From positions 2,232,001 to 2,296,000 of the forward strand of contig NZ_CP109131.1 of NCBI RefSeq assembly GCF_035917995.1: 64,000 nt of DNA. The letters are read 5' to 3'. The translations under genes were made by a program, and so were the position numbers. How positions within the stretch are numbered: position 1 is the first letter of the stretch; the number at the start of each line of letters is the position of its first letter. This document shows positions 34,902-44,320 of the stretch, piece after piece. The stretch comes from Streptosporangium sp. NBC_01755 (GTDB lineage: Bacteria; Actinomycetota; Actinomycetes; Streptosporangiales; Streptosporangiaceae). The notes below the pieces were generated by a model, which saw nothing but the letters and a program-made list of their open reading frames with translations, did not search any database and was not told the origin of the DNA.

Positions 34902-36645
34902 CCTGGATCCACGGCGTGAATTCTGGTGATCATTCTTCGGTTCGATTCCTTCACCAGGACCGTTTTGCCTGACGGGGGTCTGATTTGGGGTGTGGAGAAC
35001 CCGCCGTGCGCGGGTCACGGATTGTCCAGGCGTTCACGGGCTCGGGGGCGGGGTTCGTGCGCGAGGGCGCGGGTGACCGTGGAGGTCGAGGGAAGAGTGG
35101 TGGCAGGGCGGGGACGGGTCAAGCCGCGCGGATCGGTGGCAGCCGGTGGACGGCTTGGAAGAGGTTCATCCATGCGTGCCGCCAGTGCCAATACCGGGGA
35201 AGATGCAGGGTGAGGTGGCCCCGGCCGTGCCGGGCGATGCGGGCGGGCACGCCGATGAGATGGCGGCGCAGGGTGGCGCCGCGCGCCTTGGCGTGAAAGG
35301 TTCCGGCCAGGCAGCCGGCCGCGCGCAGCAGGTTGTGGCAGATCGCCGCCAAGGTCAGCCAGGCGGCGTTGGCGGTGAACACGCCCGAGGGCAGGTGCGC
35401 TAATGGCCCGTCGATCAAGTCCGCGTTGACCTGCTCGATGACCGCGTGATCACGGTGTTGTTCCTCGGCCTGCCCGAGGGCGTACGGACTGTCGGTGAAG
35501 ATCGCGTGATAGCGGTAGAGCGGGAACGGTTCCTCTGGCCGGAGCCCGGTCTGCGAGTTGAGCCGTTTGACCCGGCGCACGATCAGCCGGGCGGTGATGG
35601 CCTGGCCCTTCTTCGCGGCGAACGCCGTGTAGGCGACCTCCGCGATCTCGGCGTCGGAGATCCAGCCCCCTGCTTGTTCGTCGAAGATGGCGTTGGGGTA
35701 TTTGATCGCTGTCCAGGCGGTTTCGTCGATCGCCGCGATCGCGGCTTTGATCTTGGGGTCCATTTTGGCGGTGACGGAGAAGCGCACGTCGTTCGTGTGG
35801 CAGGCGTTGATCACGCCTGCGGTGTAGAACGCCGAGTCCCCGCGCATCATCAGGGTGGCGCTCGCGCCCGCTGATCGTGCCGCGCCGATCGACTCACGCA
35901 CGAACCAGGCCGCGCCGCGGGCGGAGTTCGCGCTTCCGCCGCGCAGCCGGGTGCCGGTCACCACCGGGGCGGCCAGCGGTGTGGACAGTGTGGAGGCCAG
36001 CACGTTCAGTCCGCGCACCAGCACGCCCTTGCCGCCGATCTTGGTGTGGCCGAACCCCGATCCTTGCTTCTTGTAGCCGTAGGTACGTCGCTGCATCGAG
36101 TCCACATCGAGGAAGGCGAGCACGTCCGCGCCGGGCAGCAACGGCGTATGGGCGGCCAGCCGGGCCAGCAGCAGGCGGGCCACTTTCTCGATCTGCCGGA
36201 CGTTGCCCCAGGCCAGGCACCGCAGGAACGATCCCAGCGTGGACGGTGCGCGGATACCGGTAAACAACGTGTCCATGCCGCCGTGGCGCAGTGCGTCCAG
36301 ATCATCGATGCTGTCGGCCCCGCAGGCCATCCCGGCTACGATCGAGCCGATCTTCGCCGCCGGGTTCACGCCGTCCCGGCCGGTGGGAGTGACGTGCTCG
36401 CCCGCCAGGTCGCTCAGGCCGCACCGCTCGGCCAACCGCATCACCGGCCCCAGCCCGCCGTACGCGACTACACGCTCCTCATCGAAGATCGCATGGGTCT
36501 TGGCAGAGTCGTGGAACAATTGCACTTGAGAGGTGTCCTCTCGATCAAGGTGGCGGAAGCCTGAAGAACTCCCATCATCCCAGGTCGGAGGGCACCTCCT
36601 CTCATTTCAGGATCTTCAGTTCAGAATCGGCTCGGTGGATCCAGG
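34902..36645 (-). mobile_element. IS1380-type insertion sequence, 1744 bp
   Basis: Ends are imperfect inverted repeats: CCTGGATCCAC at the left and its complement GTGGATCCAGG at the right, with further matches inside (ATTCTG). A direct CTCAG flanks both ends (34897-34901 and 36646-36650). One intact transposase gene lies inside on the minus strand. The size and termini fit the IS1380 family. The first 200 bases on the left are non-coding. Confidence 0.9.
35119..36525 (-). CDS. IS1380 family DDE transposase
   Basis: A 468-residue, apparently intact transposase. The catalytic acidic residues fit D142 (FLDVDSMQ), D230 (MMRGDSAFY) and E364 (RDHAVIEQVNADL). The C-terminal block FTANAAWLTLAAICHNLLRA is typical of the family. 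Start GTG at 36525. It is the only gene of the element and has no frameshift, so the element may still be active. Confidence 0.93.
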   Translation of the reverse strand: MQLFHDSAKTHAIFDEERVVAYGGLGPVMRLAERCGLSDLAGEHVTPTGRDGVNPAAKIGSIVAGMACGADSIDDLDALRHGGMDTLFTGIRAPSTLGSFLRCLAWGNVRQIEKVARLLLARLAAHTPLLPGADVLAFLDVDSMQRRTYGYKKQGSGFGHTKIGGKGVLVRGLNVLASTLSTPLAAPVVTGTRLRGGSANSARGAAWFVRESIGAARSAGASATLMMRGDSAFYTAGVINACHTNDVRFSVTAKMDPKIKAAIAAIDETAWTAIKYPNAIFDEQAGGWISDAEIAEVAYTAFAAKKGQAITARLIVRRVKRLNSQTGLRPEEPFPLYRYHAIFTDSPYALGQAEEQHRDHAVIEQVNADLIDGPLAHLPSGVFTANAAWLTLAAICHNLLRAAGCLAGTFHAKARGATLRRHLIGVPARIARHGRGHLTLHLPRYWHWRHAWMNLFQAVHRLPPIRAA

Positions 36646-36926
36646 CTCAGCGGGGCCAACAACGACAACTGCGTCGAGGTCGCCAACCTACCCAGCGGCG
36701 GCCGAGCCGTACGAGACAGCAAAAACCCCAACGGGCCCACGCTGAGCTTCAGTCCTGATAGATGGCGAGCGTTCATCGGCGGCGTGAAGAACGGCGAGTT
36801 CGGCCAGAGGTAGTCGGTCAGACCCTGGCGGATCTGCTGCGTGTGTCGAGACCTGTAGTCCGATCACAAGGAACGAGAAGATCGTCAGGATTCCCGCGCG
36901 GATGAAGGGCCTGCTAGTGGAGGCAT

Positions 36927-37442
36927 GTGGTGACGGCGGAACCGACATTCGGTGACCTGTTCGGCGAGTGTCACCGTTCCGCGCTCCATCTGGAGACGCG
37001 CGATGACTACGGCACCTCCAGCCCGGGATTCGTCGCCTGGCGTGACGGTGTCCCCTTCGACCGCACCAACTTCGACGCTCCGTGGGTGGCCCTGGTCAGC
37101 GGCGCGGTCGCCCGGGGCGTGGTCGTACGACGGGCCCGGATCGTGTCGGAACCGGTGAGCGACTACATCCGCTACGAGCACTCGGCCACTCCGTACTCCA
37201 ACCTCGCCGGGGGCGAACAGGTGCGCTGGCTTCCCCGGCGACTGGCCTCTGACCTGGCACTCCCCGGCAACGACTTCTGGTTGTTCGACGAACGGCTGAT
37301 CCGGTTCGGCTACTTCTCCGGAAATGGCGAGCCCGCCGGTCACACGTTCTGCGATGACCCCGCCGTGATCAGGCTCTGCCTGGCGGCCTTCGGGGCCGTC
37401 TGGGGACGGGGCATCGATCACGCGGACTATCGGCCCACCTGA
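36927..37442 (+). CDS. DUF6879 family protein
   Basis: A 171-residue protein matching the DUF6879 pattern: FGDLFGECHRSALHLETRD, RGVVVRRARIVSEPVSDYIR, VRWLPRRLASDLALPGNDFW, FDERLIRFGYFSGNG, and a C-terminal helix. The family has unknown function and accompanies XRE/DUF5753 regulators, as at 39626-40132 in this window. GGAGG lies about 5 bases before the GTG. Confidence 0.85.
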   Translation: MVTAEPTFGDLFGECHRSALHLETRDDYGTSSPGFVAWRDGVPFDRTNFDAPWVALVSGAVARGVVVRRARIVSEPVSDYIRYEHSATPYSNLAGGEQVRWLPRRLASDLALPGNDFWLFDERLIRFGYFSGNGEPAGHTFCDDPAVIRLCLAAFGAVWGRGIDHADYRPT

Positions 37443-38738: not shown

Positions 38739-39611
38739 TCAGGGCAGATCCGCGCTTTCTCGGCCGAGCGCGTCGATCGCTGCCGTGATCAGGCTCCGAG
38801 CCTGCCCGCCGTACACGGCCAGTCCTGCGAGTTCGGCGAACACCTGTGCGTACATCTCGATCTCCCTTGGCTGGGTGACGGTCAGCCACGCTGAGACGAG
38901 TTCCACGTTCACCTGCGACCGGTCGAAGATCCAGAAGTCTTCGACCGGTCGTATGGCGCTGCGGTCACTGGACACCGGGATGATCCCGAGGCTGACCCTG
39001 GGCAGGGAGGAGACGGTCAGCAGGTGGCCGAGCTGCCCAACCATCACCTCGGTATCACCGATCAGCGTGCGAAGTGTCGGCTCTTCTATCAAGATCGCGA
39101 AAGTGTGGTCACCCTCATGGAGGACACGCTGACGCTCCATACGGACCGCCACAGCACCCTCCACATCGTCCGGGAGACCTCGCCGGGCGGCGGTGGCCTG
39201 CAGAATGGCGCGAGTGTAGGCGCTCGTCTGGAAGATGCCGGGGATCAGCCAGGTGGAATAAGCGTGGAATCTCCGCGTCCGCTCGAACAGGGAGCGCACC
39301 GACTCCTGCGCCTGTCGCAGTCCCGCACGTTCCAGCCGCCGCCACTCCACGTACATGGAATCCACGGTCCGCGAAGCGGCGATGACTTCGGCGGCCTGGT
39401 CGCCGGCGTCGCACACTTCGCACCATGCCCTGATATCGGCGTCGGACGGCGCGGTACGCCCGTTCTCGATCCGGGAACACTTCGACTCGTGCCAACCCGC
39501 CGCCACAGCGACCGCGCGAGCGGTCAAACCCGCGTCGAGGCGAATCTCACGGAGGCGGTCGGCGAGAGCCTGCCGGGCCTGCTGGACATTGGATGACGGC
39601 GGGGTGCGCAT
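38739..39611 (-). CDS. XRE-family regulator with DUF5753 domain (second)
   Basis: A 290-residue paralogue-type regulator. The HTH spans LADRLREIRLDAGLTARAVAVAAGWHESKCSRIENG. DUF5753 follows (HAYSTWLIPGIFQTSAYTRA, RMERQRVLHEGDHTFAILIEE, GQLGHLL, RPVEDFWIFDRSQVNVELVS). It is divergent from the graspetide genes further right and lies 14 bases downstream of the DUF6879 gene on the same strand; no DUF397 gene is next to it. The ATG at 39611 fits homologues; the frame is open further upstream. Confidence 0.9.
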   Translation of the reverse strand: MRTPPSSNVQQARQALADRLREIRLDAGLTARAVAVAAGWHESKCSRIENGRTAPSDADIRAWCEVCDAGDQAAEVIAASRTVDSMYVEWRRLERAGLRQAQESVRSLFERTRRFHAYSTWLIPGIFQTSAYTRAILQATAARRGLPDDVEGAVAVRMERQRVLHEGDHTFAILIEEPTLRTLIGDTEVMVGQLGHLLTVSSLPRVSLGIIPVSSDRSAIRPVEDFWIFDRSQVNVELVSAWLTVTQPREIEMYAQVFAELAGLAVYGGQARSLITAAIDALGRESADLP

Positions 39612-39625
39612 AAGCCAGGCTACGG

Positions 39626-40132
39626 TCAGACGGCCCGGTATTCCGCATGCGGAATCGCCCTCTCCCAGACGGCCAGGAACGCCGACGCGCACAGTTTCAC
39701 TGCCGCCGGATCGTCGCTTGTTTCCTTTCCTGCCGATTCACCGCCTCCGGTGAAGTGATTCCACATGACCGTGGTGTCGTCGAAGACCCAGAAATCATTG
39801 CCGGGCAAGGCCAGGTCCGAGGCCCGGCGTCGGGGGAGCCACCGCACGTCCTCACCCGCCGCGAGGTTCAACCCCTCGGTGATGTCGTACTCGAAACGGA
39901 CATAGTCAGTGATCGGTTCGGACACGATGCGTGCCCTCCGGACCTGGACGCCCCGAGCACGAGCAGCGCCGACGAGTGCGAACCATGCCGGCCATCGGGT
40001 GGCCGGGACGATCTCCTCTCCTCTTTTCCAGGCGATGAATGCCGGATCACTGCGCATGTAGCCATCGCGCATTTCCAGGTGTACAGCCGACCTCCGCGCC
40101 GAGGCGAGCAGATCGTCAAACGTTGGTTCCAT
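39626..40132 (-). CDS. DUF6879 family protein (second)
   Basis: A 168-residue protein closely similar to the one at 36927-37442: DDLLASARRSAVHLEMRD, VRRARIVSEPITDYVRFEYD, EDVRWLPRRRASDLALPGND, FWVFDDTTVMWNHF. It sits between a small conserved gene and an XRE/DUF5753 gene in one probable operon, overlapping the small gene by 17 bases. Confidence 0.88.
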   Translation of the reverse strand: MEPTFDDLLASARRSAVHLEMRDGYMRSDPAFIAWKRGEEIVPATRWPAWFALVGAARARGVQVRRARIVSEPITDYVRFEYDITEGLNLAAGEDVRWLPRRRASDLALPGNDFWVFDDTTVMWNHFTGGGESAGKETSDDPAAVKLCASAFLAVWERAIPHAEYRAV

Positions 40133-40340
40133 TCCTGCCGTTCACCTCCGGAAAGAACTGCATCATGCGCTTGGGTAACCGTAGAACCGTCTCGTGCCCG
40201 GGGACATCACCGACTTCCACCAGCGTGGCGGCATCGGTGATACGCCACCCCTGGATGACATAGCAGTCACCGTCATCCCAAATCGTCGGCGAATCGTTGA
40301 TGGGAGACTCCGGATCTTTCCCGAGGAACCGTAGTGCCAT
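40116..40340 (-). CDS. Small conserved protein of the XRE/DUF6879 operon
   Basis: A 74-residue protein of unknown function: LRFLGKDPESPINDSPTIWD, then DGDCYVIQGWRITD and PGHETVLRLPKRMMQFFPE. Homologues of this pattern precede DUF6879 genes in related organisms (recalled from family context). The ATG at 40340 has GGGAGGT four bases upstream. It is the first gene of the minus-strand operon running to 38739. Confidence 0.75.
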   Translation of the reverse strand: MALRFLGKDPESPINDSPTIWDDGDCYVIQGWRITDAATLVEVGDVPGHETVLRLPKRMMQFFPEVNGRNGTNV

Positions 40341-40666
40341 GGCGACCTCCCAGCTTGAGGTGTGCGCGGACCTGCGCAATCGCGAGCATGACCGGAGGTT
40401 GCGGAGCGGTCAATAGCGTTCCGTGATCCAAGAAGATTTTCACCTGAACACGAAAACCTTGTTTCAGGATGAAAATATCACAGTCGGACGAAACCGGCCG
40501 CCGACTAACCGATCGCGGGAGCGATCGACGATATAACCGAAAAGCCTTCCCGCAAATTCGTGCAAGTTCATTGTTCATCCGACAGGCGGCTACCTAGCGT
40601 CGCACATGCGTGTTTCCAGCGACCCGGATCCGGGCCCAGACGCCGGATCCTATCGAAAGGGACATC
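40341..40666. other. AT-richer divergent region upstream of the graspetide operon
   Basis: About 325 bases between divergent operons, locally AT-richer (AAGATTTTCACCTGAACACG; GGATGAAAATATCACAG at 40469-40485). Promoters for both directions are expected here; I cannot assign exact boxes. AAAGGGAC before 40667 is the ribosome binding site of the precursor gene. Confidence 0.45.
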
Positions 40667-40939
40667 ATGGATAACCTCCGCAGAAAGCCATGGGGCCTGA
40701 CCCGGGCGACTCCCTTCTCCGCAGCGGCGCACACCTCGGCCAGGACACACCGGGTTGAGCTTGACCCGGTCACCCAGACCGGTGTCTACAGCGACGCGGT
40801 GACCGGTCAGCCCATCGAAGCCGGTAAGCACGGCACCAACAGGGAGCAGGCCACCGCGACCGCGCCACCGACCACGGATGGTTCCGGTGGCGGTGGTGGC
40901 GGCACGGCGGACTCGCACACCGACTGGGTGTCGGATTAG
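40667..40939 (+). CDS. Graspetide precursor peptide (ATP-grasp-modified RiPP)
   Basis: A 90-residue precursor of the actinobacterial GRASP-target type. The leader carries KPWGLTRATPF (residues 7-17) and VELDPVTQTGVYSDAVTGQP with IEAGKHGT (50-57), conserved motifs of the family. The C-terminus is the likely core: TATAPPTTDG, six glycines, then TADSHTDWVSD. It offers Thr/Ser hydroxyls and Asp carboxylates for omega-ester links. Asp71-Gly72 would be a good aspartimide site for the PIMT-like enzyme encoded third in the operon. The ATP-grasp gene begins directly after the stop. Confidence 0.85.
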   Translation: MDNLRRKPWGLTRATPFSAAAHTSARTHRVELDPVTQTGVYSDAVTGQPIEAGKHGTNREQATATAPPTTDGSGGGGGGTADSHTDWVSD

Positions 40940-41911
40940 GTGATGCCTCCACCCGTACTGGCGATCACCGCCTTGGATGACTTCACCGCCGACCTTGTGC
41001 TGGCCGAGTTGCACGACCGGGGCACCCCGGTCGTGCGGTTCGATCCGGGAGCCGACTTCCCCTCCGCCTGCGCGTTGGACGTGCGACTCGGGGGGCACGG
41101 AATGGGCGGCCTGCTCCGCACAGGAACGCGCCGTCTGGAGCTGACACGTGTCCGCTCGGTGTACTGGCGGAAGCCCACTCCCTACCAGCACCAGAAATAT
41201 TCACACCTCGACGAGCAGGCCGGGAAGTGGGCCGCCGAACAGTCCCGGTACGGCCTGGGCGGAGTCCTGGCCGCGATCCCCGGCGCCTTCTACCTGAACC
41301 ACCCCTGGCGCAACCGCGATGCCGAGTACAAACCCGAGCAACTCGTCACGGCCGCCGCCTGCGGGCTGGCTGTTCCCCCCACGGTGATCACCAACAGTCT
41401 CAGCACCGCGAGACGGTTCGCGGCCGAGGTCGGCACGATCGTATACAAGCCGTTGTGGTCCACGCCGTACCGCGACACGAACGGGACGGCCGTGGCCGTG
41501 TGGACCCGCGCCGTGGATCCCGCGGACCTGGACGACGGCATCGGCGTCACCGCTCACCTTTTCCAGCAACTCATCGACAAGGTCGCCGACATCCGCGTAA
41601 CGATGGTGGGAGAGCGTGCCTTCGCCGTCCACATCGACGGTGCTCCCAGCCTGGACTGGCGGTACGACTACGCCGCCCTGGCTTACGAGTTGATCGAGGC
41701 ACCGGCCCACCTGATCGAGAGGATGCGCGCCTATCTTGCTCACTTCGGGCTGGTCTTCGGAGCATTCGACTTCGCGTTGACCTCCGGCGGTGAGTGGGTG
41801 TTCCTGGAGTGCAATCCCAATGGCCAGTGGGCCTGGTTCACCGACCCGATCCCGCATCTGATCGCCGCCGCCATCGCCGACCGCCTGGAGAACCCGAGAG
41901 GCTGTTCATGA
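40940..41911 (+). CDS. ATP-grasp graspetide macrocyclase
   Basis: A 323-residue ATP-grasp ligase of the MvdD/PsnB-like RiPP maturase type. Diagnostic blocks are VRSVYWRKPTPY, FYLNHPWRNRDAEYKPEQL, TIVYKPLWS (ATP lysine), RVTMVGERAFAVHID and the metal-binding FLECNPNGQWAW. It should activate Asp or Glu side chains of the precursor and join them to Ser/Thr (ester) or Lys (amide) side chains. The start is GTG 40940 or ATG 40943. It overlaps the methyltransferase by 4 bases (ATGA). Confidence 0.9.
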   Translation: MMPPPVLAITALDDFTADLVLAELHDRGTPVVRFDPGADFPSACALDVRLGGHGMGGLLRTGTRRLELTRVRSVYWRKPTPYQHQKYSHLDEQAGKWAAEQSRYGLGGVLAAIPGAFYLNHPWRNRDAEYKPEQLVTAAACGLAVPPTVITNSLSTARRFAAEVGTIVYKPLWSTPYRDTNGTAVAVWTRAVDPADLDDGIGVTAHLFQQLIDKVADIRVTMVGERAFAVHIDGAPSLDWRYDYAALAYELIEAPAHLIERMRAYLAHFGLVFGAFDFALTSGGEWVFLECNPNGQWAWFTDPIPHLIAAAIADRLENPRGCS

Positions 41912-43053
41912 TCAATTCCACCGCCGATGATCTCGCCACGAAGCTTGCCGCGACCGGAGCGCTCACTCACCCCCGATGGCGTGAGGCCGTCAAAGCCGTA
42001 CCGCGCGAAGCATTTCTCGGTGACGCGGTCTATCGTCCGGTCGACGGAGAGCGGGAAACGATGTGGCAACCTGTTCACCGTACGGACTCCGGCGAGGGCG
42101 AATGGTCGCGCCTGGCATACGCCGACGAGACATGGGTCACCCAGGTGAACGGTGTCCTGGCGGAAGACGCACCCGGCCCGATGACAGGTGATCCCACCTC
42201 GTCCGCCACGCTTCCGAGCCTGGTGGTGCGCATGCTGGAGGCGGCGCAGATCGCCGAAGGGGACAAGGTGCTGGAGATCGGCACCGGAACCGGTTACTCC
42301 ACCGCCCTGCTCTCGTACCGTCTCGGCGACCACGCGGTCACTTCAATCGAATACGACAGGAGCGCCGCGGCTCGCGCCGCTGTGGCGATCACCGCTGTCG
42401 GATACACACCCGCCCTGGTAGTTGGTGATGGCTTAGGAGGATATGAGAAGAACGCCGAATACGATCGACTGATCGCCACCTGCTCGGTCCGTTACATCCC
42501 GGCCCCGTGGATGTGGCAGGTACGAGACGGCGGAACGATCACTACCCCGCTGTCGGGCTGGATGACCGGGTCGGCTCTCGCCCACCTCACCCTCTCCGAC
42601 GACGGCACCGCGAGCGGGCGCTTCCACGAGCAGAACGTCTCTTTCATGCCCGCACGGCAACACAGCCGTCCGCCCCGGCCGTCATATCTACGGACAGGGC
42701 TGGGTGACGCCGGAGAGAGCCGGATCGATCCCGGCGTGCTCGACGACTGGACCGGGTTGTTCGTGGCCCAGCTCGGCGCCCCGTCAGCGGAGAAGCTCGG
42801 CGGGGGTGACGACGTCTTTCTCCTGGACGTGGCCACCGGCTCGCAGGCCACCACCGAACGATCGGCCTCCGGTGGCTGGACCGTACGCCAGCATGGACCT
42901 CTGCGTCTCTGGGACGCGGTCGAGAACGCCATCCTGACCTGGCAGCAAGCCGGTTCCCCCCATCAGTCGGCCTTCGGGCTCACGGTCACTCGAAGCCGCC
43001 AGTACATCTGGCTGGAGAGACCAGAGGGACCAAGCTGGAACCTTCCCATCTGA
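41908..43053 (+). CDS. PIMT-like O-methyltransferase of the graspetide cluster
   Basis: A 381-residue protein. The N-terminal two thirds are a protein-L-isoaspartate-O-methyltransferase homologue: PREAFLGD, TGDPTSSATLPSLVVRMLEA, GDKVLEIGTGTGYSTALL (SAM motif I), SIEYDRSAAARA, GDGLGGYEKNAEYDRLIATC. About 130 C-terminal residues form an additional domain (VFLLDVATGSQATTERSA, LWDAVENAILTWQQAG) that general PIMT repair enzymes lack. Homologues in fuscimiditide-type clusters methylate a precursor Asp, which then closes to an aspartimide. The start overlaps the ATP-grasp stop. Confidence 0.88.
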   Translation: MINSTADDLATKLAATGALTHPRWREAVKAVPREAFLGDAVYRPVDGERETMWQPVHRTDSGEGEWSRLAYADETWVTQVNGVLAEDAPGPMTGDPTSSATLPSLVVRMLEAAQIAEGDKVLEIGTGTGYSTALLSYRLGDHAVTSIEYDRSAAARAAVAITAVGYTPALVVGDGLGGYEKNAEYDRLIATCSVRYIPAPWMWQVRDGGTITTPLSGWMTGSALAHLTLSDDGTASGRFHEQNVSFMPARQHSRPPRPSYLRTGLGDAGESRIDPGVLDDWTGLFVAQLGAPSAEKLGGGDDVFLLDVATGSQATTERSASGGWTVRQHGPLRLWDAVENAILTWQQAGSPHQSAFGLTVTRSRQYIWLERPEGPSWNLPI

Positions 43054-43516
43054 CCACCCGGTCAGCACATCCCTCCGCGCCAACCGAACAGGGTCGGCTG
43101 GACATGAAACGTCAACGAGTGTTAACGAGGTGATCGCGGCACATCACCGGGGGGATCGAACCCGACCGGGAGGGCAGGCCGTTACCGCACCTGCGAGGGT
43201 GACCGGCCCGGCCGGTGTCGAGTGTTGGTGGCACTCGGCGGACTCCGCCTCTTTTACCGATGCCGGCTCTGTCTAAGTTCGCGATCACAGCAAGATGCCT
43301 ATAACACCATATATGTACTGTTTTAAATCAAGTCAGCATTCTTCGCCCTGCTATCTGGCTCAGAATCCTGCTGCGATGCTCGTCATCTTGGGCTGTTCAC
43401 CGGCCCCGGCGGCGTCCGCCGCCAAAGCCCCACATCGATGACCTCATCCTGCTGCCAACGTGCAAAAGACTCTCTAAGATCAACCCCAGACGGATGCTGA
43501 AGAGTCTGGAGAAAGT
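43054..43516. other. Long intergenic region, no gene seen
   Basis: About 460 bases. The first half is GC-rich; 43290-43345 is AT-richer (CACCATATATGTACTGTTTT) and may be the promoter region of the downstream methyltransferase gene. No transporter, protease or second precursor for the graspetide cluster is encoded here. Confidence 0.5.
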
Positions 43517-44320
43517 GTGGAAGATCAGGCTACGCCAGCCGGGGTCGACCCGAACGTGCCTAACATCGCCCGGATGTACGACTACTACCTGGACGGCAAG
43601 GACAATTTCGCCGCCGACCGGGCCGCAGCCGAGCAGATTCTGAAGATCTTCCCCGAGACCCGCGACTCCGCGAGGGAGAACCGGGCGTTCCTCGCACGTG
43701 CCGTACGCCATCTGGTCGAGTCGGGCGTCCAGCAGATCGTGGATCTGGGCTCCGGGCTACCCACGCGGGGCAACACACACGAGATCGCGCACGCGGTCGC
43801 GCCCGACACCCGCGTGGTCTACGTGGACTACGACCCCGTCGTGTGCGCGCACAGCCGGGCGATCCTGGAGAACGGCGACAACGTCACCATCGTGCACGCC
43901 GACGCGCGGGCCCCGGAGACGCTGCTGGCCGAGCTGCGCGAGCACGTCGACTTCAGTCGGCCCGTGGCGTTCCTGCTGCTGGCCATTCTGCACTTCATCC
44001 CGGACGAGAACCCCGACGGCGCGGGCGCCTACCAGATCACCCAGCGGCTGTACGAGGCGAGCGCGCCGGGCAGCCACCTCGTTCTCAGTCACGCGATCAA
44101 CGCCAAGCCTGACACCACGCCGGAGGCCCTGGAGATCTACAAGCGGGCCACCGAGTCGCTGAGCCTGCGCACGCACGCGGAGATCTCCCGCTTCTTCGAC
44201 GGCTATGAGTTGCTCGAACCCGGCCTGGTGTTCCCCAAGGACTGGCGCCCTGTCGATCCGCCCCTGTTCGGCGAGCGAAACACTTCGATCGGCTACGTCG
44301 GAGTAGGCCGCAAACCCTGA
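43517..44320 (+). CDS. SAM-dependent methyltransferase, PF04672 type
   Basis: A 267-residue protein of the S-adenosyl methyltransferase family common and multi-copy in actinomycetes. The family start VPNIARMYDYYLDGKDNFAA is complete. QQIVDLGSGLPTRGNTHEIA is the SAM-binding motif, followed by VVYVDYDPVV and VAFLLLAILHFIP. Substrates are unknown for the family. It stands alone 460 bases after the graspetide methyltransferase and has its own ribosome binding site (GGAG before GTG), so membership in that cluster is doubtful. Confidence 0.88.
   Translation: MEDQATPAGVDPNVPNIARMYDYYLDGKDNFAADRAAAEQILKIFPETRDSARENRAFLARAVRHLVESGVQQIVDLGSGLPTRGNTHEIAHAVAPDTRVVYVDYDPVVCAHSRAILENGDNVTIVHADARAPETLLAELREHVDFSRPVAFLLLAILHFIPDENPDGAGAYQITQRLYEASAPGSHLVLSHAINAKPDTTPEALEIYKRATESLSLRTHAEISRFFDGYELLEPGLVFPKDWRPVDPPLFGERNTSIGYVGVGRKP

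Follow-up and report, generated by a model that had tools for sequence, protein, structure and literature searches.

A Streptosporangium gene cluster for a predicted graspimiditide with a glycine-rich loop

Introduction

What peptide is made by three tightly packed genes of Streptosporangium sp. NBC_01755 that encode a short precursor, an ATP-grasp ligase and a PIMT-like methyltransferase, and does the run of six glycines in the precursor announce an unusual ring topology? The genes lie in a stretch of 64,000 nucleotides (the window, whose numbering is used below for its features) from an 8.15-Mb single-contig genome. The characterised graspimiditides are stem-loops of Thr-Asp esters with a methylated Asp in the loop (PMC13001092; PMC12291112), and 1326, 962 and 1432 clusters of this kind were counted in three surveys (PMC13001092). 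The literature that we searched holds no mention of graspetides together with Streptosporangium.

Results and discussion

The cluster (40667-43053) consists of the three genes arranged head to tail on the forward strand. The precursor ORF (40667..40939, +) runs from ATG 40667, with AAAGGGA just 5' of the start, to TAG 40939, and its 90 residues match TIGR04186 with 56.3 bits (cut-off 25; E 2.5e-15) and PF14408 with 40.9 (cut-off 25). The ATP-grasp graspetide synthetase of 323 residues (40940..41911, +) scores 389.1 bits against TIGR04187 (cut-off 350; E 1.4e-116), and the PIMT-like O-methyltransferase of 381 residues (41908..43053, +) 443.5 bits against TIGR04188 (cut-off 380; E 6.8e-133). The Pfam matches agree (Actino_peptide in the precursor, the MvdD pre-ATP-grasp domain in the ligase and PCMT in the methyltransferase). 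The packing noticed earlier, a 0-base gap followed by a 4-base overlap, is borne out by the coordinates when the ligase starts at GTG 40940; a start at ATG 40943 would leave 3 bases, and the overlap between the ligase and methyltransferase genes is ATGA. Since all three proteins exceed the cut-offs of curated families, we assign the cluster to group 13 of the graspetides (graspimiditides), a class and mechanism that we regard as very probable, the chemistry, step order and product being proposed by analogy with characterised members. In our reading, group 13 ligases are those of the TIGR04187 (SAV_5884 type) model. The original reading, a graspetide cluster in the fuscimiditide gene order, to be checked against TIGR04186-type precursors, agrees with these matches. 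The precursor also carries a leader motif of the form [R/K]P[F/W]G and a DG between putative donors and acceptors, and the methyltransferase, a PIMT homologue extended by a C-terminal domain, has a GTGTG SAM motif and a C-terminal WxxxGxP (WQQAGSP at 345), as reported for graspimiditide methyltransferases (PMC13001092). The MvdC and MvdD equivalog models scored below their cut-offs (145.6 bits against 425, and 146 against 475), so that a microviridin-type assignment does not apply. By description, the fuscimiditide cluster of Thermobifida fusca (ThfA/B/M) has the same set of precursor, ATP-grasp and PIMT-like proteins and the same Thr-Asp stem-loop logic (PMC12291112). The sequence fixes the graspetide class, not the product.

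To place the precursor among its relatives, we used a profile of 12 precursors, which gave 63 matches in 51 of the 297 genomes of the host family. One match was the window itself, and 57 of the other 62 were retrieved, which leaves aside the five with the poorest E values (6e-6 and above). Together with 16 Streptomycetaceae loci and the window, and after one duplicate was dropped, these family loci made a set of 74 precursors. No ligase was found at L084, L095 and L138, and that of L132 was weak; no methyltransferase was found at L096, L097, L116, L132 and L138. Contig ends cut some of these loci. A search of solved structures with the window precursor returned nothing relevant, only one chance-level match (E 0.69).

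The leader carries KPWG (K7-P8-W9-G10) and ELDPVTQT, and the core spans approximately residues 55-90. P8, W9 and G10 were invariant in the 12 aligned precursors, and we equate KPWG with the published RPFG leader motif, the key recognition sequence (PMC13003496). Re-reading the ORF showed that the residues had been numbered correctly: T69/T70, D71-G72, G74-79, T80, D82, D86 and D90. The C-terminal core had been considered unusual, an impression that did not survive comparison, because its tail, D[S/T]xxD[W/Y/H][V/G/T]xD (Asp-x3-Asp-x3-Asp), occurs in eight other precursors (9/74 with the window). The uncharacterised precursors of L086, L088 and L100 have in common with the window a core of the form HG[T/S]..[T/S]-x-T..DG..DSxxDWVxD; the stretch from DG to the first acceptor, DGSGGGGGGTA in the window, reads DGSSASAPTGQP in L086, DGQDENAPRGKP in L088 and DGNGSGSGHGKQ in L100. 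The longest unbroken glycine run was six in the window, four in ten precursors and three or fewer in the other 63, and for the last 42 residues the glycine count is nine in the window and reaches 13 among Streptomycetaceae. A glycine-rich loop is ordinary among the relatives, even if none of the other 73 precursors has a run as long as the window's. Glycine-rich stretches commonly follow DG, and Gly-Ser loops are cyclised by the fuscimiditide ligase (PMC12291112); we therefore rejected the six glycines as a sign of a new topology. On present evidence the cluster is a new member of a kind that is well documented from soil actinobacteria.

Positions likely to be modified were sought in the nine precursors with the same tail, by offsets from HG[T/S] taken by eye. 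A Ser or Thr was present at 57 and 63 in all nine and at 65 in eight, and D82, D86 and D90 were present in all nine. The loop Asp was also found in 9/9, one residue further on in three of them, and L096 and L101 have two candidates for it. A wider view was given by the 45 precursors with HG[T/S], in 29 of which Asp stands at -5 and -1 from the end; the remainder comprised 15 rows from Streptomycetaceae together with L084, in which the tail is offset by one residue. In these 45 rows, which leave aside the 29 of 74 precursors lacking HG[T/S] in the last 46 residues, the number of Thr correlated weakly with that of tail Asp (Spearman 0.29, p 0.057). We considered the same-tail precursors as a subfamily and dropped the idea, because the methyltransferase tree does not group them as one clade (three changes, with eight of the nine present). 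That tree had 71 rows and omitted L036 (which duplicates L087), L127 with its fused ORF, every locus that lacked a methyltransferase match, and matches under 150 bits; L109 and L139 were flagged as long branches.

For D71, the comparison upheld one half of the suggestion that it serves both chemistries. As the aspartimide site, D71-G72 is backed by a DG at the loop in 70/74 precursors, window included (in the other four, R, S, K or A comes after the Asp), and by the invariance of D71 in 12/12 aligned precursors. As an ester acceptor it was rejected, since in the four characterised members the loop that joins the cross-linked arms holds the methylated Asp (PMC13001092); by the same analogy, we place D71 in such a loop here. 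Similarly, SsfA/B/M of Streptomyces sp. F-3 and amycolimiditide have, by description, a Gly after the aspartimide or isoAsp site within the loop of a Thr-Asp ester stem (PMC10787088, PMC13001092). The PIMT-like enzyme would methylate D71 of the cyclised peptide, in keeping with a report that only the cyclised core is a substrate of the methyltransferase (PMC13003496), and loss of methanol would give an aspartimide, which can open to isoAsp. The leader would be removed by a protease encoded elsewhere. It is quite conceivable, at a little under even chances, that D71 ends up in the mature peptide as isoAsp (or a mixture of Asp and isoAsp) and not as a lasting aspartimide. Asp81 of SsfA, which precedes Gly82, becomes such a mixture in SsfA(BM) (PMC10787088), and isoAsp is the main product when the aspartimide of fuscimiditide or amycolimiditide opens (PMC13001092). 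Against this, three of the four characterised members were purified as aspartimides (PMC13001092). The available text of the review leaves open the biological role of the aspartimide (PMC13001092).

For this precursor we predict three nested Thr-Asp omega-esters and, at D71, a single aspartimide or isoAsp. With the KPWG motif of the leader as its guide, the ligase would phosphorylate the side chains of the C-terminal Asp residues and upstream Thr hydroxyls would attack them, giving the nested esters; three are suggested because three kept donors face three kept acceptors. SsfA has five esters (postulated) and amycolimiditide four (PMC10787088, PMC13001092). The predicted modified core, T57-D90 (40835..40936, +), is delimited by the conserved Ser/Thr and Asp positions of the nine same-tail precursors, from which we infer the pairing T65-D82, T63-D86 and T57-D90. 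We give about even odds to this arrangement, the most likely one, in which residues 66-81 would form a loop of 16 residues that includes D71-G72 and the six glycines; of the whole explanation, the exact pairing is what we are least sure of. In fuscimiditide the inner ester is T7-D18 and the outer T3-D22, the ligase phosphorylating Asp and Thr attacking it (PMC12291112). Its acceptors are spaced by four, as are D82, D86 and D90 here, but it has two esters and a 10-residue loop, against three conserved acceptors and a probable loop of 11-16 residues, containing the six glycines, in the precursor of the window. T57-T65 and D82-D90 each span eight residues, yet the donor spacing (6, 2) does not mirror the acceptor spacing (4, 4), unlike in fuscimiditide.

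A different pairing within the same class, with T69 (or T70)-D82 inside, T65-D86 in the middle and T63 or T57-D90 outside, is possible, if less likely. Its loop of 11-12 residues (12 with T69 as inner donor) agrees with the 10-12 published for graspimiditides, a range that the 16-residue loop exceeds, and T65/T69 and D82/D86 reproduce the fuscimiditide spacing of four (T3/T7, D18/D22; PMC12291112). However, among the same-tail precursors a Ser or Thr occurs at 69 in only three of nine and at 70 in one, so that T69/T70, originally singled out as key donors, fare poorly beside 57, 63 and 65. Conservation thus favours T65-D82, T63-D86 and T57-D90, while published loop sizes favour T69-D82 and T65-D86. 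The fuscimiditide ligase cyclised Gly-Ser loops of 4-72 residues, fully at 4-12 and partly when larger (PMC12291112). The window adds a core type with a simple pattern of three donors and three acceptors and a natural poly-Gly loop, a useful test case for the pairing of residues by the ligase.

The surroundings were then considered. Ten flanking ORFs were scanned (approximately 35.1 to 48.4 kb): a transposase, two DUF6879 proteins, an ankyrin protein, an HTH-DUF5753 protein, an 87-aa protein, a Methyltransf_19 protein, a 313-aa ORF without a match, a TnpB-like protein and a P450. None was a protease or exporter, as had been remarked before, and a missing protease is normal here because the native proteases of graspimiditides are described as undetermined in the available text of PMC12291112. 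A 70-aa ORF (36533-36745) had no family match. Upstream of the precursor and divergent from it are three genes: a candidate HTH_31-DUF5753 regulator (38739..39692, -; PF19054, PF13560), with homologues beside many related clusters; a DUF6879 protein (39626..40132, -; PF21806, 191.1 bits); and the 87-aa protein (40116..40379, -), without a family match. The membership of the first two in the cluster is uncertain. A second DUF6879 gene lies in the window at 36927-37442, and in the same genome another adjoins a graspetide locus at 2353093.

Homologues of the DUF6879 protein were found at 14 of the 57 related loci, each with an HTH-DUF5753 homologue and ten with the 87-aa protein. The background density was 214 DUF6879 copies in 428 Mb from 49 of the 51 genomes with a precursor match, from which 0.19 loci would be expected (Poisson 6e-22, a value that is too small, as loci of related genomes were treated as independent, and that combines unequal thresholds, phmmer E 1e-3 for the loci and PF21806 E 1e-10 for the density). 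The p-value notwithstanding, the association with graspetide loci is clear. DUF6879 was not mentioned in the literature searched, and DUF397-DUF5753 pairs have already been reported with graspetide groups 11 and 13 (PMC13097080); the recurrent HTH-DUF5753/DUF6879 pair beside graspimiditide clusters may be a new observation. The likeliest role of these neighbours is regulation, and their recurrence offers a handle on regulation or self-protection. Within the stretch analysed per locus, a DUF6879 gene was absent from the 16 Streptomycetaceae loci and from the eight other same-tail loci, both absences counting against a tie to this core type. We consider unlikely, the more so after the result for the eight same-tail loci, the full combination of a three-ester graspimiditide, with T57 as outermost donor and a 16-residue poly-Gly loop, and the HTH-DUF5753/DUF6879 pair as its dedicated regulator or immunity module; if true, it would extend natural graspimiditide loops beyond the 10-12 residues of characterised natural members (PMC12291112).

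It seems improbable that the cluster, in the manner of three other graspetide loci in this genome, is silent or in decay. Those loci have a fused ligase-methyltransferase ORF, a ligase without a found start and an intron-split ligase, and a sigma-70 pattern scan of 40380-43520 gave no promoter-like site, which is weak evidence in an actinobacterium. Nevertheless, the three ORFs of the window are full length against models or relatives, and near-invariant residues (columns with at least 95% of one residue) are kept at 45 of 48 positions in the ligase (63 relatives) and 54 of 55 in the methyltransferase (62 relatives). These counts omit eleven damaged, short, duplicate or far rows, as well as ligase matches under 180 bits and methyltransferase matches under 200 bits. 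The four exceptions in the two enzymes are A8, I113 and V149 (usually V, L and L) and A100 (usually S). Judged by its reading frames and these residues, the cluster looks intact. A PIMT-only RiPP (imiditide/pamtide) or a lanthipeptide methyltransferase beside an unrelated ATP-grasp gene is scarcely credible: a PIMT domain alone is common to these classes (PMC13001092), but the methyltransferase passes TIGR04188 and reaches 98.5 bits with the FxLD model, far under its cut-off of 320, it adjoins a TIGR04187 ligase and a TIGR04186 precursor, and the overlap of its gene with that of an ATP-grasp maturase means that the PIMT homologue is not the sole modifying enzyme.

The genome contains further graspetide loci. 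At L127 (2350481-2356705) a single ORF joins ligase residues 3-293 to methyltransferase residues 147-380, the part with the SAM motif being missing. At L141 (4840500-4852500) the ligase is split, with matches to residues 2-138 and 290-316 only, and an ORF for a reverse transcriptase/maturase of the group II intron type (PF00078, PF08388) separates the two parts; this locus has a full-length methyltransferase and, upstream, a DUF397 gene. The ligase match of L140 (2771500-2779500) begins at model position 32, or residue 57 of the window ligase, and the precursor profile found no precursor there. L005 and L006 (near 1070151 and 2016653) are of another type, ATP-grasp genes with short upstream precursor-like peptides (MSKI[S/T]IDD..PFEGAEL); that of L006 had no family match and that of L005 matches TIGR04497 with 56.3 bits (cut-off 32). 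Finally, L139 (5836000-5842500) has a ligase-methyltransferase pair with nearly full-length matches and a divergent precursor ending in TNKPTVVDGDPNNPPSLDEGPKD, its scores lying under the cut-offs for TIGR04186 (19.5 bits against 25) and TIGR04188 (371.3 against 380).
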